NCBI GenBank assembly: GCA_035573675.1
Contig: DATMAB010000010.1
Location: 186,001-250,000 of the forward strand
Origin: Terriglobales bacterium
GTDB taxonomy: Bacteria; Acidobacteriota; Terriglobia; Terriglobales; Acidobacteriaceae
Direction of reading: 5' to 3'
Length of the DNA: 64,000 bases
Shown here: positions 27,959 to 44,714 of the stretch, piece by piece
Numbering within the stretch: position 1 is the first letter of the stretch
Layout: the number at the start of each line of letters is the position of its first letter
Program-made: the position numbers and the translations under genes
Notes under the pieces: generated by a model
What the model was told of the DNA's origin: nothing
The model's database searches: none
The model's input: only the letters and a program-made list of their open reading frames with translations

Positions 27959-29308
27959 GTGGTCAAGTGCTGCTTCATTGACGAGCGGGAAGACTTCTTC
28001 CAGCTATTGGGGGAGAAGCTCGGGGAGGAATTCGAGATGCGGTCTGCGGCGGCGGACGATCGCGAGCTCCTGACCGAGTGCGACGTGGTGCTGGTGGGGC
28101 TGCCGCCGGCGGAGGATCCGCGCTTCGCGAAGTGTCTGGAATCGCTGCAGAAGATCATCCGCAACCCGGACGCGGCGCCGGTGGTGGCCTTTGTGGCCGG
28201 ACCGGACCGGGCCGTGATGCGCCAGGCGATGTCGGCGGGCGCGTACGACTGCTTCATGGAGACCGGCTCGATGGAGGAGCTGCGCATCGTCCTGCGGCGG
28301 GCCGCGCGCTTCCGCGACCTGAACCGCGAGGTCGAACGGTTGCGGGCGCAGGGTCCGCAACTGAAGGATTTTCCCGCGGTGCTGGGCGTGGACGGCAAGA
28401 TCCGCGCGGTGTTCCAACTGGCGCAGCGCGTAGCGCAAACCGACGCCACCGTGCTGGTGACGGGCGAGAGCGGGACGGGCAAGGAGTTGCTGGCGCGGGC
28501 CATCCATCAGGCGAGCCCGCGGGCGAAAGAGCCGTTTGTGGCGGTGGCGTGCTCGTCGCTGCCGGAGACGCTGATCGAATCGGAGCTGTTCGGGCACGAG
28601 AAGGGAGCGTTCACGGGCGCCAACGCGGTGCGCCGCGGACGCTTCGAAGCGGCGGGACAAGGGACCATCTTCCTGGATGAGATCGGCGATCTTTCGCCGG
28701 CCATGCAGGTGAAGCTGCTGCGGGTGCTGCAGGAAAGGACGTTCGAGCGCCTGGGCAGCAACAAGCCGGTGGCCATGGAGGCGCGGGTCATCTGCGCCAC
28801 CAACCGCAATCTGAAGCAACTGGTGGAACAGGGCAGCTTCCGGCTGGACCTCTATTACCGGCTGAACACGGTGGAGCTGGAACTGCCTCCGCTGCGGGAG
28901 CGGCGGGACGACATCACTCTGCTGGCGCACGCCTTTCTGCAGAACTTCGCGGAGCGGCACCAGAAACCGGCGCGGCGCATCTCGCCGGCGGCGATGTGCG
29001 CGCTGCAGGAGTACGACTGGCCGGGCAACGTGCGCGAACTGCAGAACGTATTGGAGCGCGCGGTGGTGATCTGCGAGGGGCCGGACATCCGCATCAACCA
29101 TCTGCCTTCGCAGTTCGCGGGCTGGGAAGAAGAAACGGCGCCGACGTCGTTCGAAGAGGAAGTCCGCAACTTCAAGCGCCGCCTGATCCAGCGCACCCTG
29201 CAGGAGTACGGGAACAACAAGCTGCAGGCGGCCCGGTCGCTGAAGATCGCGCGGTCGTCGCTCCATCGGCTGATCGACGAGCTGGATATCCCTCCGAGAG
29301 TGCAGTGA
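27959..29308 (+). CDS. sigma54-dependent activator with degenerate receiver domain
   Basis: 449 residues from GTG 27959. Residues 1-120 have receiver topology, but the phospho-acceptor position reads CDVVLVGLPP (Gly where Asp is expected) and the usual Lys strand reads YDCFMETGSMEEL (no Lys). The AAA+ core is intact: GESGTGKE (Walker A), HEKGAFTGA (the sigma54-contacting GAFTGA loop), GTIFLDEIGDL (Walker B), and an arginine-finger region FRLDLYYRLN. A Fis-type helix-turn-helix ends the protein (QAARSLKIARSSLHRLIDELDI). It should remodel sigma54 polymerase, controlled by something other than phosphorylation. The next gene starts 10 bp later. Confidence 0.93.
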   Translation: MVKCCFIDEREDFFQLLGEKLGEEFEMRSAAADDRELLTECDVVLVGLPPAEDPRFAKCLESLQKIIRNPDAAPVVAFVAGPDRAVMRQAMSAGAYDCFMETGSMEELRIVLRRAARFRDLNREVERLRAQGPQLKDFPAVLGVDGKIRAVFQLAQRVAQTDATVLVTGESGTGKELLARAIHQASPRAKEPFVAVACSSLPETLIESELFGHEKGAFTGANAVRRGRFEAAGQGTIFLDEIGDLSPAMQVKLLRVLQERTFERLGSNKPVAMEARVICATNRNLKQLVEQGSFRLDLYYRLNTVELELPPLRERRDDITLLAHAFLQNFAERHQKPARRISPAAMCALQEYDWPGNVRELQNVLERAVVICEGPDIRINHLPSQFAGWEEETAPTSFEEEVRNFKRRLIQRTLQEYGNNKLQAARSLKIARSSLHRLIDELDIPPRVQ

Positions 29309-32047: not shown

Positions 32048-32218
32048 ATGAAGGACGTTCTTCGCAGGATGTGGCGGGATGACGAGGGCCAGGACGTGGC
32101 GGAATACGCGCTGATGCTGGCGGTCATCCTGGTGGTCGTGATCGGGGCGGTGCGCCTGATCGGCACCAACGCGAGCAACATTTTCAACGCTGCGTCGGGC
32201 CAGCTGACCACCCCGTAG
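32048..32218 (+). CDS. Flp-type (type IVb) pilin 1
   Basis: 56 residues: a short basic leader (MKDVLRRMWRDDEG) cut before QDVAEYALMLAVILVVVIGAVRLIG. The Glu-Tyr pair at +5/+6 after the Gly (GQDVAEY) is the Flp signature recognised by the TadV prepilin peptidase. It is the major subunit of the Tad pilus used for adherence and surface colonisation. The ribosome binding site GGAGGA lies upstream. It is a near-duplicate of the next gene. Confidence 0.93.
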   Translation: MKDVLRRMWRDDEGQDVAEYALMLAVILVVVIGAVRLIGTNASNIFNAASGQLTTP

Positions 32219-32364
32219 GCGAGGCGGGGGAAGGAGGCAATTCGGGCCTGGACCCGAGCACCCCTTGCGCTTCCCCAGGCTTTCGGAGTCCTATCGCCGG
32301 GATAGGGCGGCAGTGGCAGTACCCGGCTGTCCAACCAAACCGTAGAAGCCAACCGGAGGAGATC
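32219..32364 (+). ncRNA. inter-pilin leader with a predicted pseudoknot
   Basis: CCTATC (32290-32295) pairs with GATAGG (32301-32306). The 5-nt loop GCCGG (32296-32300) is complementary to CCGGC at 32323-32327, forming an H-type pseudoknot 38 nt before the second pilin start. The upstream leader of pilin 1 contains a related CTATCAGGCCGGG...CCCGGG arrangement. A regulatory role is inference. Confidence 0.35.
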
Positions 32365-32535
32365 GTGACAGAACTCGTCTGGAAGATGTGGAAGGATGAC
32401 AAGGGCGAGGACGTCGCCGAGTACGCGCTGATGCTGGCGGTGATTCTCGTCGTGGTGATCGGGGCGGTGCGCCTGATCGGCACCAATGCGAGCAACATCT
32501 TCAACGCCGCGTCGGACCAGCTGACCACCCCGTAG
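32365..32535 (+). CDS. Flp-type (type IVb) pilin 2
   Basis: 56 residues from GTG 32365, with GGAGGAG 5 nt upstream. Leader MTELVWKMWKDDKG, then EDVAEYALMLAVILVVVIGAVRLIGTNASNIFNAASDQLTTP, which differs from pilin 1 at only two positions of the mature part. This is a recent tandem duplication that kept the second copy intact, with different leaders. A terminator follows, so the two pilins can be expressed at a higher level than the assembly genes. Confidence 0.93.
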   Translation: MTELVWKMWKDDKGEDVAEYALMLAVILVVVIGAVRLIGTNASNIFNAASDQLTTP

Positions 32536-32548
32536 GAGTGCTGGATGC

Positions 32549-32599
32549 GAGCGGCAGGTGGGCTGACACCCCGTCCCGTCCTGCCGCTCCCGGTTTTTT
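32549..32599 (+). terminator. intrinsic terminator after the pilin genes
   Basis: GAGCGGCAGG (32549-32558) pairs perfectly with CCTGCCGCTC (32580-32589). CCGG and six T (32594-32599) follow. Its position inside the Tad operon suggests partial read-through into the assembly genes. Confidence 0.85.
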
Positions 32600-32644
32600 G
32601 AGCCATAATAGGAACTAGCGAGAGGGGAGACGCGAGGCGCCCGT

Positions 32645-33154
32645 ATGTCGGAATGGTTGTGGCAAGCCTTCGTGATCGCCTTCGTGGTGACCTGTGCCAT
32701 CGGCGACGCGCGCTGGCGAAAGATTCCGCGCGCGTTCACCACCTGCGGCGTGGTGGCCGGCCTGGCGTTCCACTTGTGGAGCGGAGGTCTGGCGTCGGCG
32801 GCTGCGGCCGCGTTTCTGGGATTCGCCGTGGGTCTGGCGTTCTTTCAGTTGGGCGCCATCGGCGGCGGTGACGTCAAGCTGATGGCGGCCCTCGGAGCCC
32901 TGCTGGGGTTGCAACCCTGGCTGGTGGCCATGCAGATCGCCGTGTTCGTGGCGGCGCTGATGGCGGTGGCGCAGATCTTCCGGCGCGGAGCCTGGCGGCA
33001 GACGCTGGAGAACATGCGCGAGATCCTGCGGGCGCTGAAAGCGCAAGGGCTGCGCGCCCATCCCGTGCTGCATGTGAAGAACGCCGCCATGATCCGAGCC
33101 CCGTTCGGCGTGGCAGCGGCCTGCGGCACGCTGTTCGCACTGGTGGCGCGATGA
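32645..33154 (+). CDS. prepilin peptidase (TadV/CpaA, A24 aspartic family)
   Basis: 169 residues with four or five membrane helices. The two catalytic aspartates are in AIGDARWRKIPR (GD-x-R-x3-IP) and GAIGGGDVKLMAALG (GGGDxKLMAALG). It cleaves the leaders of the Flp pilins and TadE-like pseudopilins at the inner membrane. As usual for TadV it lacks the methyltransferase domain of PilD. Its stop overlaps the next start (ATGA). Confidence 0.93.
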   Translation: MSEWLWQAFVIAFVVTCAIGDARWRKIPRAFTTCGVVAGLAFHLWSGGLASAAAAAFLGFAVGLAFFQLGAIGGGDVKLMAALGALLGLQPWLVAMQIAVFVAALMAVAQIFRRGAWRQTLENMREILRALKAQGLRAHPVLHVKNAAMIRAPFGVAAACGTLFALVAR

Positions 33155-33567
33155 GGAACCAGCGCGGTTACGAGCGCGGCGCTACGCTGGTGGAGGGCGC
33201 CATCACGATTCTTCTGTTCTTCACCCTGATTTTGGCGAATATCGAATTCGGACGGGCGTACAATCAGTACCAAGTCATGACCGACGCGGCGCGCGAGGGA
33301 GCGCGATTCTCGGTAGCGCCCTTCAGCGGCACCAATACGCTCCCGACGACGACCGCCGTGCAGGCAGAGGTCCAACGGTTTCTGGACAGCGCGGGTGTGC
33401 GGGGAGCGACAATCTCGGTGACGCAGAACGTGACCGCCACGATAAATAATGTGCCCGTGACTCATACGCAGGTAACGGTGAACGCCCCGTATACGTTCTT
33501 CTTTTTCCGCTTCGGATCGGTGGGCCTGAGCACAACCGCTACGATGCGCAACGAGACCTCCCCCTGA
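33151..33567 (+). CDS. TadE-family pseudopilin
   Basis: 138 residues. RGATLVEGAITILLFFTLILANIEFGRAYNQYQVMTDAAREGARFSV shows the G|xxxxE processing motif (G-ATLVE), one membrane helix and the conserved AAREGAR segment of TadE-like proteins. It is a minor pilin processed by TadV and needed for Flp pilus assembly. It overlaps the prepilin peptidase gene by 4 bp. Confidence 0.9.
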   Translation: MRNQRGYERGATLVEGAITILLFFTLILANIEFGRAYNQYQVMTDAAREGARFSVAPFSGTNTLPTTTAVQAEVQRFLDSAGVRGATISVTQNVTATINNVPVTHTQVTVNAPYTFFFFRFGSVGLSTTATMRNETSP

Positions 33568-33585
33568 GGCAGGAGACGCCGGACG

Positions 33586-34050
33586 ATGAGGTCGACCCAG
33601 TGGCAATCGAGGGAGCGGGGAACGCAGATCGTGGAGATGGCAGTGGCCCTGCCACTCTTGCTGTTTATGGCGCTGGTGGTGATCGAGGGGGCCAGCCTGG
33701 TCCGCACCCACCAGGTGCTGAATAATGCCGCCCGCGAAGGTGCGCGGTTCTCCATCATCCTGACCAACAAGGACAATCCCGCAACAGGCTTCAATGGAAC
33801 CAATGCGATCAAGGACCGGGTGGTGGCCTACGCCGCGGCCAACGGAGTGACCATCACCAGAAGCAACGTCACCATCAACCAGTGCGCGTTGATCACCTCG
33901 CCGTCAGGGCTGACTTATTCGACATCGCTGGTGGTGGTGCAGCTCAACTATACGCTGCGGTATCTGCCGCGCATCCCGTTCACCAGCGCACCGACCACGG
34001 TGCCGCTCGCCGGACGGGCACAGTTCCGAAACTTCTACGGGTGCAACTGA
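33586..34050 (+). CDS. second TadE/TadF-family pseudopilin
   Basis: 154 residues. RGTQIVEMAVALPLLLFMALVVIEGASLVRTHQVLNNAAREGARFSI has the same processing site and NAAREGAR motif as the gene before it. The C-terminal 90 residues differ (a beta-rich domain with a Cys pair). Two such minor pilins are normal for Tad loci. The gap to the next gene is 14 bp. Confidence 0.9.
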   Translation: MRSTQWQSRERGTQIVEMAVALPLLLFMALVVIEGASLVRTHQVLNNAAREGARFSIILTNKDNPATGFNGTNAIKDRVVAYAAANGVTITRSNVTINQCALITSPSGLTYSTSLVVVQLNYTLRYLPRIPFTSAPTTVPLAGRAQFRNFYGCN

Positions 34051-34064
34051 GCTAGGAGGATCGT

Positions 34065-34910
34065 ATGGACCGGAGACGGTTCTTAGTCGTGGGAATGATC
34101 GCGGTCGTGCTGGCGGCGCTGGTGAGTTTCGGAGCGCTGCGAGTCCTGCGCGGCGCGCAGGCCGATGCAGGCAGCACCACCAACGTGGTGGTGGCCGCCA
34201 AGGCGCTGCAGGTGGGGCAGCAGATCCAACTTTCCGATCTGCAACTGGCGCGGCTGCCTACCGCGCAACTGCCCCAGGGAGTGTTCGGCGACCTGAAGGA
34301 AGTGGCAGGCCGGGGTGTGATCGTGCCCATTTCGGAAAAGGAAGTGGTGCTGAACAGCAAGCTGGCGCCGCGCGAGGCCGGCGCCGGCCTGCCGCCGAAG
34401 ATCCCGCAGGGTATGCGGGCGCTTTCCGTGCGGGTGCGGGAGGACATATCCGTGGCCGGATTCGTGCAGCCGGGCACACGGGTGGATGTGTTGCTGACGG
34501 GCATTCCGCCCGGCTCGCCTTCCGGCCAGACCGTGACCACCACCGTGCTGGAGAACGTCGAAGTGCTGACGGCCAACCAGGACCTGCAAGCCAAGGAGCC
34601 CTCCAAGAAGGACACTACCGTGGTGACCCTGCTGCTTTCACCGGAGGACGCGCAGAAGCTCACCCTGGCCAGCACCCAGGGTTCCATTCACCTGGCATTG
34701 CGGAACCCCCTGGACAGGGACGAGGTGAAACCGAAGGGAACGTACTATGGGGACTTGTACGTAGCCGCGGGCGCGCAGCCGCAACAGGCCAAGGCCGCGG
34801 TGTCCGGAGCGTCGACCCGGCGAGCCAGGCACGCGGCTGTGCCGGAACCGAGCAAGGTTTACGTAGTGGAGATGATCCGCGGGGATAAGCGTGACGAGGC
34901 AAAATTCTAG
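34065..34910 (+). CDS. cpaB: Flp pilus assembly protein CpaB/RcpC
   Basis: 281 residues. An N-terminal membrane anchor (FLVVGMIAVVLAALVSFGALRVL) is followed by an SAF domain (VVVAAKALQVGQQIQLSDLQLARLP...) and the CpaB core (MRALSVRVREDISVAGFVQPGTRVDVLLTGIPPG...TTTVLENVEVLTANQDLQAKEP...TVVTLLLSPEDAQKLTLASTQGSIHLALRNPLD). It is periplasmic and works with the secretin. The gap to the secretin gene is 30 bp. Confidence 0.95.
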   Translation: MDRRRFLVVGMIAVVLAALVSFGALRVLRGAQADAGSTTNVVVAAKALQVGQQIQLSDLQLARLPTAQLPQGVFGDLKEVAGRGVIVPISEKEVVLNSKLAPREAGAGLPPKIPQGMRALSVRVREDISVAGFVQPGTRVDVLLTGIPPGSPSGQTVTTTVLENVEVLTANQDLQAKEPSKKDTTVVTLLLSPEDAQKLTLASTQGSIHLALRNPLDRDEVKPKGTYYGDLYVAAGAQPQQAKAAVSGASTRRARHAAVPEPSKVYVVEMIRGDKRDEAKF

Positions 34911-34940
34911 GCGCCAGAAGCCGGGGGACGGAGCGAGACG

Positions 34941-36470
34941 ATGACACAAACCGAGAGGCGGTGGCTGTCGTTGGGGAGTCTGGTAGTGATGGCGGCGATG
35001 GCAATGGCCCCGGCAGCCTGGGCGATGCAGGCGGCGGCCGAAGCCGGAGCGATGACGCCCAAAAAGGCTCCGACCGGCCTGGGACAGGCGATTTCGGGCG
35101 CCCAACAGGGAGCCGCCGAGGCACTGGGATCGGTGACGCCCGGGGCTCCGACGGCCACGGGCGCCCCACAAGCCACTGGGCCCGCCGCGGAAGCCGGCAT
35201 GCCGCAGGAGGGCTTTCCGGAAGGCTCGGTGCCGTTGCGGGTGCTGGCGGGCAAGTCCATCCTGGTCAACACCACGGACCGGCTGAAGCGCGTGGCGGTG
35301 AGTGATCCGACCGTCGCCGATGCCCTGGTCGTGACCCCGACCCAGATCCTGGTGCACGGTCGCCAGCCCGGCGAGGTCTCCCTGGTGCTGTGGGATGAGG
35401 CCGAGCGCTCCCGCAGTTTCGACCTGCGGGTGGATGTGGACGCCACCTCGGCGGCGGAGGAGATCCATCGCATCTTTCCCAGCGAGAGGATCAACGTATC
35501 GGCCTCGCGCAATGCCATCGTGCTTTCCGGGCACGTGAGCAGCGAGGAAGTGCAAAAGAACGCCGGCGCCCTGGCCGGAGCCTACTCCAAGTCCGTGGTC
35601 AACGTGCTGACCTACGGTCCCTACGAACCGCAGGAAGTGCTGTTGCAGGTGAAGTTCGCGGAAGTCAACCGCGACGCTCTGGAGCGCTACGCCGTCAACC
35701 TGTTCGCGACCAACGTCTCCGTCGTCGGCCAGACGGGTACGGGCAGCCGGCCGCCCGTCAACCTGACCGACACCGACGTCAAGGACGTGCCGGAAGGCTC
35801 CTTCAGCAGCGACCTGCAGATCGACCCGCTGAACGTGTTCCTGTTCCGCCCGGATGTGCACGTGGGCGCAGCCATCCAGGCCCTGAAGCAGAAGTCGCTG
35901 GCGCAGATCCTGGCCGAACCGAACCTGATCGCTTTGAACGGCAAGGAGGCCAGCTTCCTGGCCGGCGGCGAGTTTCCCATCCCCATCGTGCAGGGCGGAG
36001 GCAACGTAGGCAACGTCACGGTCCAGTTCAAGGAGTTCGGCGTGCGGCTGAGGTTCACGCCCTACATCATGCCCACGGGAAACATCCGCCTGAAAGTGGC
36101 GCCGGAGGTAAGCCAACTGGACTTCGCCAACGGCGTCACCATCTCCGGCTTCACCATCCCCGCCCTGGTCACGCGACGCGCGGAGACCGAGTTGGAGTTG
36201 CAGGACGGACAGAGCTTCCTGATTGCCGGCTTGATTGACAATCGCGTGGCCAACGTGGCCTCGAAGATTCCCGGGCTGGGAGACATCCCGATTATCGGGT
36301 ATTTGTTCCGGCAAAAGTTCAATCAGAAGACCACCGGCGAGCTGATGGTGCTGGTGACGGCGCGCAAAGTGTCGCCCAGCGTCGATCTCCCGCCGGGACC
36401 GCAATTCCCCCAAGAATTCCTGGACAAGCAGAAATTCGACAAACCCAAACCCACGGGAGGGGGCAAGTGA
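34941..36470 (+). CDS. cpaC: type IVb pilus outer-membrane secretin (CpaC/RcpA)
   Basis: 509 residues. Signal peptide region SLGSLVVMAAMAMAPAAWAMQA, then an Ala/Pro-rich linker. The pilus secretin N-domain follows (VLAGKSILVNTTDRLKRVAVSDPTVADALVVTPTQILVHGRQPGEVSLVLWDE), then a BON-like segment, then the secretin barrel (VQFKEFGVRLRFTPYIMPTGNIRLKVAPEVSQLD...ELELQDGQSFLIAGLI...VASKIPGLGDIPIIGYLFRQ). It forms the outer-membrane pore for the pilus. The stop TGA and the next ATG share one base. Confidence 0.95.
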   Translation: MTQTERRWLSLGSLVVMAAMAMAPAAWAMQAAAEAGAMTPKKAPTGLGQAISGAQQGAAEALGSVTPGAPTATGAPQATGPAAEAGMPQEGFPEGSVPLRVLAGKSILVNTTDRLKRVAVSDPTVADALVVTPTQILVHGRQPGEVSLVLWDEAERSRSFDLRVDVDATSAAEEIHRIFPSERINVSASRNAIVLSGHVSSEEVQKNAGALAGAYSKSVVNVLTYGPYEPQEVLLQVKFAEVNRDALERYAVNLFATNVSVVGQTGTGSRPPVNLTDTDVKDVPEGSFSSDLQIDPLNVFLFRPDVHVGAAIQALKQKSLAQILAEPNLIALNGKEASFLAGGEFPIPIVQGGGNVGNVTVQFKEFGVRLRFTPYIMPTGNIRLKVAPEVSQLDFANGVTISGFTIPALVTRRAETELELQDGQSFLIAGLIDNRVANVASKIPGLGDIPIIGYLFRQKFNQKTTGELMVLVTARKVSPSVDLPPGPQFPQEFLDKQKFDKPKPTGGGK

Positions 36471-37672
36471 TGCGTGGCCGAAGCAGGAATCGCGAGCGTG
36501 GCATGACCATCGTCATGCTGGCGGTGTTTCTGGTGGTGTTGTTCGCGATGGCGGCGCTGGCGGTTGACCTGGGGTTCGCCTACACGGCACGGACCAGCGC
36601 GCAGCATGCAGCGGACGCGGGCGCGCTGGCGGGCGCGTACACGTTCGCCTTTACCGGCCTGAGCCAGCCGGGCGCCGCCATTGACGCGGCGCGGGCCGCG
36701 GCCCAAGCCAATTACGTTCTGGGCGCGCCGGCGACCATCGCGGCCACCGACGTCACGGTAGACATTCCCAACCGCAGGGTGACGGTAACCGTCCCGCGCT
36801 CCGGAACGAGCGCGATCAGCACGGTCTTCGCGCGCGTGCTGGGCATCCGCTCGCTGGATGTCGTGGCCCGGGCCACGGCGGAAGCGCTGTCGGCCGGCTC
36901 GGGCTCGCGGTGCGTCAAACCGGTGTTTCTGCCCACGACCATCCTCAGCCCCAACAATCCGGTTACGGCCTGTAACAACGGCGAGAGGATTTTCGACTCG
37001 AACGGGAACATCACGAGCTTTGCCCAGAGCCAATTGGGAACCTGCCACGAGATCCGTCCGACGGACCCGAACGACGAGGCCCTGCAGAACCCCTTGGCGC
37101 CCGGGCAGTTCTATTCACTGGATTTCGGGGCCGGCGCCGATGCCTACCGCTGCACCTGGGCAGGATGCCTGAACCAGTGTCCCAGTGCGGACGAGGACAT
37201 CATCGAGTGCGGGAACGATTATCCCCTCAAGACCGGCGACATGGTGGGACCGGTGCAGCAAGGCGTGACCGACCTTATCGGCGATCCCGCGGATACCTGG
37301 TGGAGTAGCTGGTCGCCGACGAACCAGCAGTATGTGAACGAGCCGTCAAAGACGCTGGTGGTCGACACCCCTTCGCTGGTGCTGGCTCCCGTCTATGACA
37401 ACTGCGCGCAGGTCATCAACTCCGGAACCGCTGGGCAAAGGGTAGTCGTGATCGGTTTCGTGACCATCTTTGTAGACGGCCTGGGACCCCGAATCGGCTG
37501 TCCCGGAGGCGGGGGCCGGGGCGGCGGTATCAACCCGAATGAGAGGGTGGCTGCACACCTGGTCGGGATCACCACCTGCGCCGGCGTAGGCGGCGGGGGG
37601 GCCGGGGCGGGAGGCAGCGTCTCAGGGCCGGGCGGTTATCCCATCCGGCTGATCCAGACGCCTACCACCTGA
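36470..37672 (+). CDS. TadG-like pilus assembly protein
   Basis: 400 residues from ATG 36470, with GGGAGGGGG upstream. RNRERGMTIVMLAVFLVVLFAMAALAVDLGFAYTARTSAQHAADAGALAGAYTF is the typical TadG N-terminus: a membrane helix and an AADAGALAGA motif. The Glu at +5 is Met, so it is not processed like TadE. The large periplasmic part has about ten cysteines (CVKPVFLPTTIL...CHEIRPTD...CTWAGCLNQC...) and a Gly-rich tail. No von Willebrand A domain is evident, unlike the longest TadG proteins. Confidence 0.85.
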   Translation: MRGRSRNRERGMTIVMLAVFLVVLFAMAALAVDLGFAYTARTSAQHAADAGALAGAYTFAFTGLSQPGAAIDAARAAAQANYVLGAPATIAATDVTVDIPNRRVTVTVPRSGTSAISTVFARVLGIRSLDVVARATAEALSAGSGSRCVKPVFLPTTILSPNNPVTACNNGERIFDSNGNITSFAQSQLGTCHEIRPTDPNDEALQNPLAPGQFYSLDFGAGADAYRCTWAGCLNQCPSADEDIIECGNDYPLKTGDMVGPVQQGVTDLIGDPADTWWSSWSPTNQQYVNEPSKTLVVDTPSLVLAPVYDNCAQVINSGTAGQRVVVIGFVTIFVDGLGPRIGCPGGGGRGGGINPNERVAAHLVGITTCAGVGGGGAGAGGSVSGPGGYPIRLIQTPTT

Positions 37673-37720
37673 TCGGCACCGAGAGCGGCGATGGCAGTAT
37701 AGGGAGAATAGGGACCGAGC

Positions 37721-38884
37721 ATGCCTGCGTTAGCTGTAGTCATTCTGGCGCTGGACGAGGAACAGCGGACCATCCTGAAGATGCTGGTGGATGGCACCGC
37801 TATCGCCCGCACCACCCATGCTGTGCCCGGCTACCCGGTAGGGGCCACCGACCCCATCATCCGGCGTATTCACGAGGCCCGCCCGGATGTGCTGCTGGTG
37901 GACATCCCCTCGCATGACCCTACGCCCGGCCTGCGAGCCATCGAGCTGCTGCATGCGGAATTGCCGGCTGCGGCGGTGTTCGCCGTAGGGGAAATGGCCC
38001 AGCCGCAGGTGATCGTGGCCGCCATGCGGGGCGGAGCGTCGGAGTTTCTGGAGCGCCCGGTGGGCACCAACCACCTGCTGGAGGCGCTGGCGCGGCTGAC
38101 CTCGGCGCAACGCAAGACGCGCACCAACGGCGTGCGCGGCCGCGTGTTCACGGTGGTGAACGCCAAGGGCGGCAGCGGCGCGACCACCATCGCGGTGCAG
38201 ACGGCGACGGCCCTGCAAGGCATGCAGGGGGGAGTGGCGCTGGTGGATCTGGCTCCGCTGGGCCATGTGGCCCTGCATCTGAACGTGAAGCCGCAGTTCA
38301 CGGTGGTGGACGCCATCCGCAACCTGCACCGCCTGGACGGAGCCCTGCTGGAAGGCTTCATGACGCGCGACGAGCGCGGCATCCATCTGCTGGCGGGCGT
38401 ACAGGAGCCGATGATGGTGGAGCCGTCGCACGCGGAATTCGCGCGCCTGTTCGACATGCTGGTGAGCCACTACCGGCACGTGGTGGTGGACGCTTCCTCG
38501 CGGCTGGACGCCATCACCCGCATGGTGAGCGACCTTTCCGACACCGTGCTGCTGGTGGCGCATGCCGACGTGGCTTCGCTGTGGAGCGCCAACAAGGTGC
38601 AGAACTTCCTGAACGACGGGAGCGGCCGCGAGCGGCTCCGCCTGGTGCTGAACCGCTACCGCAAGATCTCCGGCTTCACCGACGCCGACGCCGAAGCGGC
38701 CACGCACACCAAGCTGCTGTGGAAGATCCCCAACAACTACGCGGCCATCTCCAACGCCATCGACCGGGGAGTTCCGGTGATGCAGACAAACCATTCGGAA
38801 GTCTCGCGCGCGTTCCAGGGTTTGGCGACGGCGCTGACTCAGGGAGCAACCGCCAAACCCAAGAGCTGGACCCCATTCCGTTGA
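37721..38884 (+). CDS. cpaE: CpaE/TadZ-type localisation ATPase
   Basis: 387 residues. An N-terminal receiver-like domain (AVVILALDEEQRTILKMLVD...RPDVLLVDIPSHDPTPGLRAIELL...GGASEFLERPV) is followed by a MinD/ParA-type ATPase. The deviant Walker A is NAKGGSGATTIAVQTATAL, with Ala for the canonical Lys; this is common in CpaE. A second motif is VVVDASSRLDAIT, and the end is NRYRKISGFTDADAE...KIPNNYAAISNAIDRG. It positions the pilus machine at the cell pole. Confidence 0.93.
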   Translation: MPALAVVILALDEEQRTILKMLVDGTAIARTTHAVPGYPVGATDPIIRRIHEARPDVLLVDIPSHDPTPGLRAIELLHAELPAAAVFAVGEMAQPQVIVAAMRGGASEFLERPVGTNHLLEALARLTSAQRKTRTNGVRGRVFTVVNAKGGSGATTIAVQTATALQGMQGGVALVDLAPLGHVALHLNVKPQFTVVDAIRNLHRLDGALLEGFMTRDERGIHLLAGVQEPMMVEPSHAEFARLFDMLVSHYRHVVVDASSRLDAITRMVSDLSDTVLLVAHADVASLWSANKVQNFLNDGSGRERLRLVLNRYRKISGFTDADAEAATHTKLLWKIPNNYAAISNAIDRGVPVMQTNHSEVSRAFQGLATALTQGATAKPKSWTPFR

Positions 38885-38901: not shown

Positions 38902-40197
<1,296 letters not shown>

Positions 40198-40223: not shown

Positions 40224-41192
40224 ATGGTCTACCTCGTCGTCCTCGGCTTGTTCATCCTGGTGGTGATTCTCGTCTTCACCGTGGCCGGGGTCTTCGAAGA
40301 ACGGGACGTGCGAGCGCGCTCCATGCGCGAGCGGTTGCTCTCGCTGGAACGGGCGCAGGAGCGCGGCCCCTCGGAAGAGCTGGCCCTGTTGCGGGAAGAG
40401 ATCCTGAGTGAGATTCCGGCCCTGAACCGGGTGCTGCAGCAGTCTCCCCGCATCAGGCAGTTGCAGCGCTTCCTGGATCAGGCGGATACGGGCACGCGGG
40501 CGGGCAAGTTCCTGATGATCTCGCTGGCGCTGGCGATGATCTTCGGGGCGCTGGCCATGGAATGGTCGAATATCCCCACTCTGGGCCTGGCTATGGCCCT
40601 GCTGGGTGGCCTGATGCCCTACTTCTATTACGCCTACCGGCGGGCCCGGCGCTTTCAGAAGTTCGAGGAGATGTTTCCGGAAGCCATCGAGCTGCTGTCG
40701 CGGGCCACGCGCGCCGGCCACGCGTTCACCACGGCCATCGAGTTGATCGGCAATGAGCTGGGCGAGCCGGTAGCAGGAGAGTTCCGCAAACTGTTCGAGG
40801 AGCAGAAATACGGATTGCCGGTGCGCGATGCGCTGCTCAACCTGGGCGAGCGTGTCCCGCTGGTGGACGTGAAGTTCTTCATCACCACCGTAATGCTGCA
40901 ACGCGAGACGGGCGGGAACCTGGCCGAGATCCTGGACAAGCTCTCGTACCTGATCCGCGAGCGCTTCAAGATCCTGCGGCAGGTCCGGGTTTACACCGCG
41001 CAGGGCCGGCTGACGCTGCTGATCCTGATGCTGCTGCCCCCGGGCGTGGTGCTCATGTTCGCCTGGATGGACTACAAGTTCATCGAGCCGCTGTGGACGG
41101 ATCCCATCGGGCATGCGCTGATCGCGGCGGGCGTCGTGATGCAAACCATAGGCTTCTTTCTGATCCGCAAGATCATCCGTATCCGGGTTTGA
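40224..41192 (+). CDS. tadB: Flp pilus inner-membrane platform protein TadB
   Basis: 322 residues. N-terminal helix ([23 protein letters not shown]), a pair of helices in the middle, the T2SSF core ([91 protein letters not shown]), then two C-terminal helices. It forms the inner-membrane platform with TadC. The gap to the next gene is 4 bp. Confidence 0.94.
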
Positions 41193-41196
41193 CCAT

Positions 41197-42105
41197 ATGG
41201 CACTGACCAACATTCTGATTGCAGCCGCGATGTTCGTGACGCTGGCGGCAGCGTTCTTCTTCCTGATGGCCGCCGCTGTTTCCCCGGCGTCGCTGCTGGG
41301 AGCGCGCTTGCGCGCCCTCACCGGCGTACGGATCGAGGAAAAGAAGCCGAAGATGCAAGAGCGCCTGGAACAGGCGCTCACTCCGCTGGCCAAGGCGCTG
41401 CCTGCTTCCCCGGCAGAACTTTCGCGGATGCGTCTCATGCTGGTGCAGGCCGGGTTCCGCGAGCCCCGGCACGCCACCATCTTCTTCGGCTCGCGCGTGG
41501 CCCTCTTGGCGGCGGCGGTGATTTTCGTGCTGAGCACGAACCTGTTCGCGCGCGACGCCATGTTTGCGGTGGGCATCGTCGGGCTGGCCTATACCTTGCC
41601 GACCATCTGGCTGCGACAGAAGGTGAAGGCTCGCCAGTTGGCCATTCGGCTTGGACTCCCGGACGCGCTGGATCTGGCCGTGATCTGCGTGGAAGCGGGC
41701 CTGGGCCTGGACCAGGCGGTGCAGCGTGTGGGCGACGAAATGCGCCATGTCCACAAGGACCTGTCCGATGAGTTCGGATTGGTGAACCTGGAGATGCGCG
41801 CCGGCAAGCCGCGGGCGGAAGCCCTGCGCAACCTGGCGGTCCGCACGGGCGTGGACGACATGCGGGCGCTGGTGGCGGTGCTCATCCAGACCGACCGCTT
41901 CGGTACCAGCATTGCCACAGCGCTGCGCGTGCACTCCGACGCCCTGCGCACCGAGCGCCGGCAGCGGGCCGAGGAAGCCGCGGCCAAAACGACCATCAAG
42001 ATGGTGCCGGTGCTGGTGTTCTTCGTTTTTCCGTCCATGTTCTTCGTCAGCCTGGGACCGGCGGCCATCCAGCTGATGCGGAACCTGCTGCCGGCGTTGA
42101 AGTAG
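41197..42105 (+). CDS. tadC: Flp pilus inner-membrane platform protein TadC
   Basis: 302 residues. It has the same architecture as TadB: first helix [25 protein letters not shown]2SSF core [107 protein letters not shown], and a C-terminal helix pair. It is the partner of TadB. A micropeptide gene follows after 8 bp. Confidence 0.94.
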
Positions 42106-42113
42106 GGAGAAAC

Positions 42114-42188
42114 ATGGAATACGCGATCCTGGCCGTGGTGCTCCTGCTGGGGCTGGTGGTTTACAACCGCAAGGGGAAACGGGTGTGA
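42114..42188 (+). CDS. 24-residue membrane micropeptide in the Tad operon
   Basis: ATG 42114 with GGGAGA 5 nt upstream encodes a peptide beginning MEYAILAVVLLLGLVVYNRK and ending GKRV. It is one uninterrupted membrane helix with an acidic start and a strongly basic tail. It sits exactly between the TadC stop (8 bp before) and the DUF192 start (4 bp after), so operon spacing supports translation. No family is known to me. It may be a small subunit or regulator of the pilus platform. Confidence 0.6.
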   Translation: MEYAILAVVLLLGLVVYNRKGKRV

Positions 42189-42192
42189 TTGA

Positions 42193-42603
42193 ATGGCCGC
42201 AGGGTCCAACGCGAACTCCAAGCGCCGCGGCTACGCCTACAACCGCACCCGACAGGCCTTCCTGGCCAGTGAGCTGCGCGTCGCCGATACTCATGCCGGG
42301 CGTCTGCGCGGCCTGATGGGCCGCAGCAAGGAAAGCTTCCCGCCCGGATCGGGCCTGTGGATCATTCCCTGCCATGGCGTGCACACGCTGGCGATGCGCT
42401 TTCCCATCGACGTGGTGTACGTGGACGCCAACCAGGTAGTCGTGGGCCTGGAAGAGAACGTGCGCCCGTGGCGCATGACGCCAATGGTCATGGAAGCGGC
42501 CACGGTGCTGGAACTGCCGCCTCATACCATCTTTAACACCGGCACCAGCGTCGGCGATCAACTGGAGATAGTCCGGGAACGGAACCACCAGCCCGCCCCA
42601 TGA
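42193..42603 (+). CDS. DUF192 protein
   Basis: 136 residues. ELRVADTHAGRLRGLMGRSKESFPPGSGLWIIPCHGVHTLAMRFPIDVVYVDANQVVVGLEENVRPWRMTPMVMEAATVLELPPHTIFNTGTSVGDQLEI is a complete DUF192 domain with the GLMGR and GVHTxxMRFPIDVVYVD motifs. The family is uncharacterised, but it is often encoded near Tad pilus genes. There is no signal peptide, while many homologues have one. Its stop overlaps the next ATG (ATGA). Confidence 0.9.
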   Translation: MAAGSNANSKRRGYAYNRTRQAFLASELRVADTHAGRLRGLMGRSKESFPPGSGLWIIPCHGVHTLAMRFPIDVVYVDANQVVVGLEENVRPWRMTPMVMEAATVLELPPHTIFNTGTSVGDQLEIVRERNHQPAP

Positions 42604-44714
42604 GCGACAAGCCCAAGCTGCTGGTGGACTGGGAGCCGCGCTGGCGCAACTTCACCACATCTCTCCGCCCCGCCCTGCAACGCGAAGCGCCCTTGCCGGT
42701 GAACTACTTTCGCCGCAATGGCGGCGCACCCGCCCTGTTGGTGGAGTGGGACCGGCCACTGGCCGGGTTCTCGGCACTTGGGATCGCCCTGGGTCGCGAT
42801 CCGGCGCTTCCCGCCTACTATTTCGAGGACTTCCAACCGGCCCTGCTGGTGGAGTGGGAAGAGGGCTGGGGGAACTTCTTCTCCTGCGTCGCGCCGGCGC
42901 TGAAGCTTTCCGCCCCGCGCCTGGCCAACGAATGCGATCACCTCCCGCTGACGCCACGCGGGCTGGTGGGGGCCCTGGCCGTACTGGCTGCGTCGCTGGC
43001 GTTCGCCACGCTGCTGGCCTGGCGCATGGCTCCGGCTCCGCAACGGCAACACATCGCTTTACTTCCGCTGGAACCGCTCATCTATGCGCCTCCCGTCGTG
43101 GCGCAGCCACGCGCCCGCGCGCTGACGCCGCGGGAACTGGCACGGGCGCGAGAGCGCCAAGCTCGGCAGCCGACGCCGAATTCACGCGAAGCGAGCAAGC
43201 CCGAACCGAACAAGCCGGAAGAGCCGCCGCAGGTGCAAGTGGTTCTGCAGCCTTCGCCCAACCTTCCGCGCATGGAAGATGTGGGCGGCGCGGAAGCCGG
43301 CCGGTCGGGCCGTTCCGGAGGACGCGAAGCCTTCCACCCCACGCAGGTCATTCGCATCTCCCGCGGGCCGCGGCTGGTGGAGCGCGTAGCCGACGCCCCC
43401 AAGCTGAACCTCCCCAAACGCAACGACGCCGTGGCCAACCTGGTCGCGGTGGCTGCGGCGCCTCCACCGCCGCTTCCCATGGCTGCGGTAGCTCGCGGCA
43501 CACGGCTGGGAATCTCCATGCCGGAGCCCAGGGTGGTCGCTCCGGCGCCGAACCCGCGGCGCTCCGTTGCCTCCCTCAACGTGCCCCAGACGCCCACGGT
43601 CGTCGTGCCGCCTCCACCCGACATTCGCGTTCCCCCGGGCACGGTGACCGACCCCAAGCTGGCCGTGCCCTTGCCCACCTTGGCGGCGCCTTCGCTGGGG
43701 CAGCGGAGCCTGCGAGAAATCGCCACCGGCACGACCGGAACCGGCATCATCCCTGAAGTCGCCTCCGCGGGATCGCCCCAGGGCACGGGCAACGCTGCTT
43801 CCGAACCCGACGTGGCTTCCGACGATCCCAACGGACGCCCCGAAGGGCAGGTGGCCGCAGCGCACGGCGCGGGCACCGATCCCGAGGGCTCGCCCGACGG
43901 CACGGCTGAGGCCAGCGGCCTCGTGATCTCCACCAGCCCCGGCGATGCCGTCGGCGTTCCCGGAGAAAGCGTGGGCACGCTGGCGATGTCGCCTGCCGGT
44001 TCAGGCACCACCGGGGCGGGTGGCTCCGGTGGCGGCACCGGAATCGGTGTTGGAACCGGATCAGGGAGCGGGGCGCACGGCACCGGACCGGGCGCAGCCG
44101 GATCGGGAACGGGATTTGGCGCGGACGCCGGCGCACACGGCGGCATTTCTCCCGGGCCAGGACCGGGCGGAACGGGCAGCGGCACCAGCCGCAGCGGGCT
44201 GGCCGGGGTCACCATCCGCGGCGGAGTCGTCAACCTGCCGAGCTTCGCCACGGCCGGAGCTCCGGCGCCGCCGGGCCGTACGCCGACCGAAGGGCGGCGC
44301 GTACCCACCATCACGGTGATTGCGACGCCGCGCTCCGGTGGCGCTCTCCCGACGTACGGGCTGCTGAAAGGCCCTCGCGTGTACACCATCTACATTCAGA
44401 CCCGCCTGGGCACGGGCGTGCTTCAGTACTCCGAGCGGCCCAAGGACATCCGCGGCTTTCAAAGCGACCTCACCGCACCCGAGCCGCTGCGCGCCGACTT
44501 CCCTCCCGGCACCCCTATGGCGCGCGTGATCGTCGCCTGCGTGCTCGACCGTTCCGGCTTCCTCAAGGACCTGCGCGTGGTCAGCGCCGCTTCCCAGGAG
44601 GTCGCAGGCAAAGTGATGGAGGCGCTCAAGGACTGGCGCTTTCGCCCCGTCCTGCGCGGCAACGAAGTCATCGAGGTGGACGCGCTGCTGGGCTTTTCGG
44701 TGGGAACGCAGTAG
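42600..44714 (+). CDS. TonB-like protein with triple N-terminal repeat
   Basis: 704 residues. The N-terminal 105 residues contain three repeats of one unit: PKLLVDWEPRWRNFTTSLRP, PALLVEWDRPLAGFSALGIA and PALLVEWEEGWGNFFSCVAP, about 40 residues apart. A single membrane helix follows (GLVGALAVLAASLAFATLLAW), then a long Pro-rich and Gly/Ser/Thr-rich periplasmic span. The C-terminal 90 residues (TPMARVIVACVLDRSGFLKDLRVVSAASQEVAGKVMEALKDWRFRPVLRGNEVIEV) match a TonB C-terminal domain. Energy-transducing TonB needs ExbB/ExbD, which are not here. It ends the Tad operon, and a link to the secretin is possible. Confidence 0.85.
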   Translation: MSDKPKLLVDWEPRWRNFTTSLRPALQREAPLPVNYFRRNGGAPALLVEWDRPLAGFSALGIALGRDPALPAYYFEDFQPALLVEWEEGWGNFFSCVAPALKLSAPRLANECDHLPLTPRGLVGALAVLAASLAFATLLAWRMAPAPQRQHIALLPLEPLIYAPPVVAQPRARALTPRELARARERQARQPTPNSREASKPEPNKPEEPPQVQVVLQPSPNLPRMEDVGGAEAGRSGRSGGREAFHPTQVIRISRGPRLVERVADAPKLNLPKRNDAVANLVAVAAAPPPPLPMAAVARGTRLGISMPEPRVVAPAPNPRRSVASLNVPQTPTVVVPPPPDIRVPPGTVTDPKLAVPLPTLAAPSLGQRSLREIATGTTGTGIIPEVASAGSPQGTGNAASEPDVASDDPNGRPEGQVAAAHGAGTDPEGSPDGTAEASGLVISTSPGDAVGVPGESVGTLAMSPAGSGTTGAGGSGGGTGIGVGTGSGSGAHGTGPGAAGSGTGFGADAGAHGGISPGPGPGGTGSGTSRSGLAGVTIRGGVVNLPSFATAGAPAPPGRTPTEGRRVPTITVIATPRSGGALPTYGLLKGPRVYTIYIQTRLGTGVLQYSERPKDIRGFQSDLTAPEPLRADFPPGTPMARVIVACVLDRSGFLKDLRVVSAASQEVAGKVMEALKDWRFRPVLRGNEVIEVDALLGFSVGTQ

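Follow-up and report, generated by a model that had tools for sequence, protein, structure and literature searches.

A conserved gene for a predicted membrane micropeptide directly behind tadC in a Tad pilus cluster

The way in which pilins are moved through the TadB/TadC platform by the Tad ATPase has yet to be settled. Published models of the Tad machine, in those parts of them that are accessible, give a core of TadA, TadB and TadC only. In the window, by which we mean the whole 64,000-nucleotide stretch of DNA analysed here, a very short open reading frame lies between tadC and a gene for a DUF192 protein, and an earlier, sequence-only reading proposed that it could encode an unreported small subunit. 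Here we ask whether this frame is a gene, whether related loci have it as well, and what place its product might have in the pilus machine.

The frame and its surroundings

The genes around the frame form a tad cluster, with the features listed in Table 1. The mature parts of the two tandem Flp-like pilins are almost identical (VAEYALMLAVILVVVIGAVRLIGTNASNIFNAAS), and neither pilin matches a Pfam family at 1e-3. Upstream of the cluster there is an ORF for a sigma-54-type regulator (27959-29308), called from sequence by its GESGTGKELLARAIH motif. After the DUF192 gene comes a 704-aa protein (42600-44714) without a Pfam match, with an end that looks TonB-C-like by eye and an N-terminus that holds three repeats in tandem, LLVDWEPRWRNF, LLVEWDRPLAGF and LLVEWEEGWGNF. 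In the genome, a search for 16S rRNA gave no match, nor was an exact match to an Acidobacteria primer present, and these searches did not confirm the word 'acidobacterial' used in the sequence-only reading.

Table 1. Coordinates of the tad cluster features in the window
Feature	Coordinates	Strand	Basis or content
Two tandem Flp-like pilin genes	32048-32218, 32365-32535		Named from sequence: GEDVAEY, then a hydrophobic stretch
Other tad genes	32048..38884	+	Two Flp-like pilins, TadV-type peptidase (PF01478), two TadE, RcpC/CpaB (PF16976), secretin (PF00263), Tad/TadG-like (PF13400), CpaE-like ATPase
tadA/cpaF, ATPase	38902..40197	+	PF00437 (E 4.3e-61)
tadB, platform protein	40224..41192	+	PF00482 T2SSF (E 1.3e-16)
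tadC, platform protein	41197..42105	+	PF00482 T2SSF (E 6.5e-19)
AGGGAG ribosome-binding motif	42104..42109	+	Overlaps tadC stop codon; read from sequence
Micropeptide gene, 24 aa, MEYAILAVVLLLGLVVYNRKGKRV	42114..42188	+	Read from sequence; homologues; dN/dS
DUF192 protein	42193..42603	+	PF02643, COG1430 (E 9e-19)

In the window sequence the frame runs for 24 codons from an ATG at 42114 to a TGA at 42186-42188. The GGAG at 42106-42109, 4 nt ahead of the ATG, touches the tadC stop codon (42103-42105), and in the sister species the spacer between tadC and the micropeptide differs, with an AGGA retained. Spacing is tight on either side, at 8 nt from tadC and 4 nt to the ATG of the DUF192 gene at 42193. 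The predicted product has a 3-residue N-terminus, a single hydrophobic helix (about A4-V16) and a basic tail, YNRKGKRV. In its start codon, ribosome-binding motif, tight spacing, single helix and basic tail, and in the adjoining platform genes (tadC, ending at 42105, and tadB just upstream, both with PF00482 matches), the locus is as the sequence-only reading had described it.

That reading had further held that the frame is not there by chance. We scanned the 64 kb for ORFs having a start codon, an SD-like motif, 20-40 codons and a 15-residue Kyte-Doolittle mean of at least 2.7; the micropeptide was the sole free-standing ORF to pass, the one other match being an internal start within a Flp pilin. 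When the 87-nt gap between tadC and DUF192 was shuffled 20,000 times, an equivalent frame arose in none of the shuffles.

Relatives in the same TadC clade

Besides the sister species, three genera (G012, G005 and G355; TadC 63-68% identical) have a 27-residue version of the peptide in the same place (MTPGVVAVLVVLLLLGLVAYNRQKDRV, MTPAVVAVLVILLVLGLVAYNRQKDQA and MSLAMVAILVLVLLLGLVAYNRQKDQV, respectively), with tadC and the peptide gene overlapping by 4 nt. An L.GLV.YNR core is kept over four genera, and we saw the window-type peptide in five genomes only. Among loci chosen on TadC alone, each counted once, the peptide is present in 8 of 80 from the window's own TadC clade and missing from the other 72, so the gene is not essential to every Tad machine and is dispensable in that clade. 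The sequence-only reading had named the lack of any equivalent in homologous loci as evidence against it. Equivalents do exist right after tadC, both in the sister species and in three other genera of this Tad clade, and a 31-residue form is found in nearly all sister-clade Tad loci; the reading is thereby supported. It had not noticed how many loci of its own clade are without one.

At TadC residue 81, which is methionine in the window, 32 of the clade's 34 loci without the peptide have W, and the seven loci with it all have L or M; this association came from an unplanned column scan with few independent events and is a lead only.

Selection on the peptide

The micropeptide is under purifying selection. 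Comparing the window with the sister species, we found six synonymous changes to one nonsynonymous change (V24A) in the peptide, giving a dN/dS of 0.05, along with a changed stop codon; reference genes of the same species pair gave 0.12 (tadC) and 0.08 (DUF192). When the window-sister pair was read in shifted frames, the Sd:Nd counts were 1:4 and 2:6, and stops break one of the frames. Within the trio of 27-residue peptides, from three genera, dN/dS is 0.06-0.15. The 31-residue type described below has a mean pS of 0.60 versus a mean pN of 0.13 over 50 pairs, and the differences between its tandem copies are mostly synonymous where compared. The equal synonymous and nonsynonymous rates that the sequence-only reading had named as evidence against a gene are thus not seen.

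With only 24 codons, and with most loci of its TadC clade lacking it, the frame might be suspected of being a product of chance, or of serving spacing or translation coupling with no function for the peptide itself. Given the dN/dS values of 0.05-0.15, the core shared by four genera and the outcome of the shuffles, we find such an explanation scarcely credible. The ORF at 42114-42188 is, on this sequence evidence, a genuine and conserved gene for a micropeptide that is predicted to lie in a membrane.

A longer type across the phylum

The first relatives in which we read the sequence behind tadC were picked solely by TadC similarity, and in the sister TadC clades a longer type of peptide was found there, of 30-33 residues (MDNVTIIRVVAGVLFVVVLVILIQRRRTRVR and similar). 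A profile built from nine of the sister-clade peptides gave 19 matches in 61 relatives at E < 1e-5, and each of them lies 3' of a tadC. In 297 genomes sampled evenly from the phylum, the profile gave 28 matches in 25 genomes; 26 of the 28 lie within 0.5 kb 3' of tadC, counting second and third copies, and the remaining two are 1.6 kb from tadC in one case and on a different contig in the other. Linkage was counted by setting the positions of profile matches against those of TadC, searched for in the same 297 genomes, together with a reading of the flanks. Locus L099 (G302) has its 31-residue-type peptide, MVSGHIIPIFAGFLFVCLLYVIVKRRKKSAV, 1.6 kb past tadC instead of beside it, with DUF192 downstream.

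When sister-clade loci were chosen on TadC alone, again with each locus counted once, 28 of 29 had the peptide. Tandem micropeptide genes follow tadC in several places, with two copies in L026, L203, L209 and L212 and three in L206 and G270. Other groups of the phylum have more divergent equivalents, such as MMLTTTQLVLVAFAAVVLVLYLMRRRARLRHE in G181. Homologous or position-equivalent peptides are therefore found directly behind tadC across the phylum. In L227 and L228 (G346 and G314), a protein roughly 450 residues long (containing GEATGLILAERIRLPYTLLEPLVERMRAERLV) comes straight after tadC in place of the micropeptide and DUF192.

Searches elsewhere gave little. Sixteen Planctomycetota genomes with a related TadC had no profile match better than 0.04, and a convincing equivalent frame was seen in none of 27 named TadC loci, almost all of them from Planctomycetota. 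Chance matches to membrane anchors, none trustworthy, were all that the window-type peptide gave against Pfam and the 31-residue type against Pfam and NCBIfam. A profile search of the PDB with the micropeptides found no match. A plasmid collection, queried with tadC DNA and two of the peptides, returned only a tadC fragment from Paraburkholderia and a single weak chance match to SURF1, and in the open literature we found no relevant report of a Tad micropeptide. The micropeptide very likely belongs to a new, uncatalogued small-protein family tied to Tad platforms.

One family or two

Whether the window-type and 31-residue peptides are a single family bears on how the gene's history is to be told. 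Direct identity between them is low, and the 31-residue profile misses the window peptide in the window's own genome. The TadC tree, moreover, sets the window-type loci amid peptide-less ones. From these observations one could argue that the window peptide has no kinship with the 31-residue family and is a separate micro-gene that arose, or took the place of the old one, in a few genera. There are, however, several points of agreement. The window peptide lies directly 3' of tadC on the same strand, with an 8-nt gap, and shares the layout of the family, namely 24-40 residues with one hydrophobic helix and a net basic C-terminal tail. Peptides of intermediate look occur in the window's own TadC clade, in loci L133 (MEHVLIRDLGLAAMVIIGLLLYGRRGRRHDR), L168 and L007. 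Profile-profile comparison of the two types gives a match of 71% probability over 27 columns, which is hydrophobic and weak. Loss from a peptide-bearing ancestor is also plausible, since nearly all sister-clade loci have the peptide. We thus regard a separate origin as rather unlikely; judged by position, layout, intermediates and the profile match, the two types are likely to be one family.

Presence of the peptide is strongly clustered on the TadC tree, requiring 7 changes compared to about 29 in shuffles; many of the 31-residue loci in this tree were included because they had matched the profile, and it is not a census. Within the window's clade the window-type peptides occupy early branches, a large crown comprising 29 loci and a five-locus clade belonging to another family are without any peptide, and nearly every sister-clade locus has one. 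The simplest story is that of an ancestral tadC-micropeptide pair, with the micropeptide later shortened by drift in the window's clade and lost repeatedly, and it depends on both peptide types being one family. The micropeptide would then have become dispensable in the window's TadC clade and been mostly lost there, and the window would retain a shortened relic form.

Orientation in the membrane

In all 42 peptides compared, the C-terminal flank is more basic than the N-terminal one, with a mean net charge of +4.2 versus 0. An extra N-terminus that is hydrophobic, alanine-rich and signal-peptide-like (for example, MNLALWLLQAAPEAAPDN) is present in four homologues belonging to other classes. 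From the basic C-flanks and these N-termini we infer an N-out/C-in orientation, in which the N-terminus of the micropeptide would be periplasmic and its basic tail cytoplasmic. AlphaFold2 predicts a single continuous helix, residues 3-29, for one member of the 31-residue type (mean pLDDT 85).

The orientation bears on a further possibility, that the micropeptide is a miniature Flp-like pilin. Like the Flp pilins it is short, hydrophobic and encoded among tad genes, and the window peptide happens to begin M-EY, such that its MEYAILAV looks by eye like EYALMLAV, with which the cluster's mature Flp pilins begin. It has, however, neither a leader nor a prepilin cleavage site, the EY is missing from homologues in other genera, and BLASTP of the micropeptide against the window's Flp produced no alignment. 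The basic C-terminal tail, in addition, points to an orientation opposite to that of a pilin. A pilin of this kind seems to us highly improbable.

TadC or DUF192 as partner

The order tadC, peptide, DUF192 is seen in the window and in most loci, and DUF192 is the next downstream gene in many loci, not in all. Such an order might suggest that the peptide partners the downstream DUF192 protein, not TadC. In the sister clade, however, the gap between the peptide and tadC is short, and DUF192 is often 200-600 nt off or not found. Several loci from other classes have no DUF192 that we could find beside the peptide, and most peptide-less loci retain DUF192 all the same. A partnership with DUF192 is accordingly very unlikely in our judgement, and the short gap to tadC, set beside the variable gap to DUF192, makes tadC the more likely partner. 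No gene fusion joined the peptide to TadC or to DUF192 among 213 tadC and 156 DUF192 ends. In two sister loci, a search for terminators in the interval from the peptide to DUF192 gave nothing above shuffles that would settle where the operons end.

Proposed role

By analogy with known small proteins, the reading that we favor, with moderate confidence, is that the micropeptide acts as a CydX/AcrZ-like accessory subunit or stabiliser of the TadB/TadC platform. It draws on the purifying selection, the linkage to tadC, the sister-clade carriage, the spacing, the predicted topology and single helix and the clustering on the tree described above, and on the precedent of one-helix partners that are encoded with multi-pass proteins. 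The micropeptide would be a single-pass inner-membrane part of the Tad machine, packing on transmembrane helices of TadC/TadB with its tail close to the TadA ATPase face or to acidic lipids, and would stabilise or tune the platform in the manner of CydX for cytochrome bd oxidase and of AcrZ for AcrB. Across the phylum, the tadC-adjacent one-helix peptides are probably a part of the machine that builds the pilus which has been overlooked so far. Points against this reading are that no fusion to TadC or DUF192 was found, that 72 of 80 loci in the window's TadC clade lack the gene, that the kinship of the two peptide types draws on position, layout, intermediates and a weak profile match, and that the window type was seen in just five genomes.

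The main rival is that the micropeptide is a regulator or assembly factor of the tad operon and not a lasting subunit: a brake on the contact between ATPase and platform, for example, or a shield of TadC from proteolysis, or a helper in TadC insertion. The strict linkage to tadC and the purifying selection fit this explanation equally well, and it is also consistent with the frequent absence of the gene in one clade and with changes in copy number, there being three copies in L206 and in G270. Near-universal carriage in the sister clade (28/29), on the other hand, is more like what one would expect of a standing component. Taking these variants jointly, we consider a regulator or assembly factor to be the less probable kind of role, with a modest chance of being correct.

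Returning to the accessory subunit, the tandem copies in sister loci suggest that several copies of the micropeptide may be needed per machine. A broader proposal, which we make tentatively and with somewhat less than even confidence, is that the platforms of this phylum ancestrally had a multi-copy, tadC-linked one-helix micropeptide that shaped the coupling between TadB/TadC and the ATPase, and that one clade does without it. If this were true, the two TadC clades would constitute a natural comparison of machines with and without the micropeptide. A phylum-wide micropeptide tied to tadC, together with a clade mostly lacking it, would offer a direct handle on the question of how pilins are moved. 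The gene also shows family libraries to be missing genes shorter than about 35 codons in the operons of secretion and pilus systems.

Comparison with known systems

CydX, whose gene is found in cydAB operons, has few conserved residues and is tied to one form of CydA (PMC4325964), and AcrZ is a small one-helix protein on AcrB (PMC7267776). The micropeptide resembles CydX, KdpF and AcrZ in its size class, its single helix, a carriage that is patchy and goes with one form of the partner, and in belonging to a kind of gene often missed by annotation; with CydX it also shares a gene placed directly behind that of a large subunit and a scarcity of conserved residues. It differs in having no sequence match to such families in Pfam or NCBIfam (in Pfam only, for the window type), and its putative partner is a pilus platform, not an oxidase or a transporter.

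TadB and TadC (CpaG/CpaH) are thought to act jointly as a single platform linking the TadA/CpaF hexamer to the movement of pilins, the modelled TadA:TadB:TadC stoichiometry being 6:3:3, according to the accessible parts of two reports (PMC11300603, PMC12307814). The micropeptide is not among the components given in those parts of the models and is not T2SSF-like, but it is encoded by the next gene after tadC and is predicted to reside in the same membrane as the platform.
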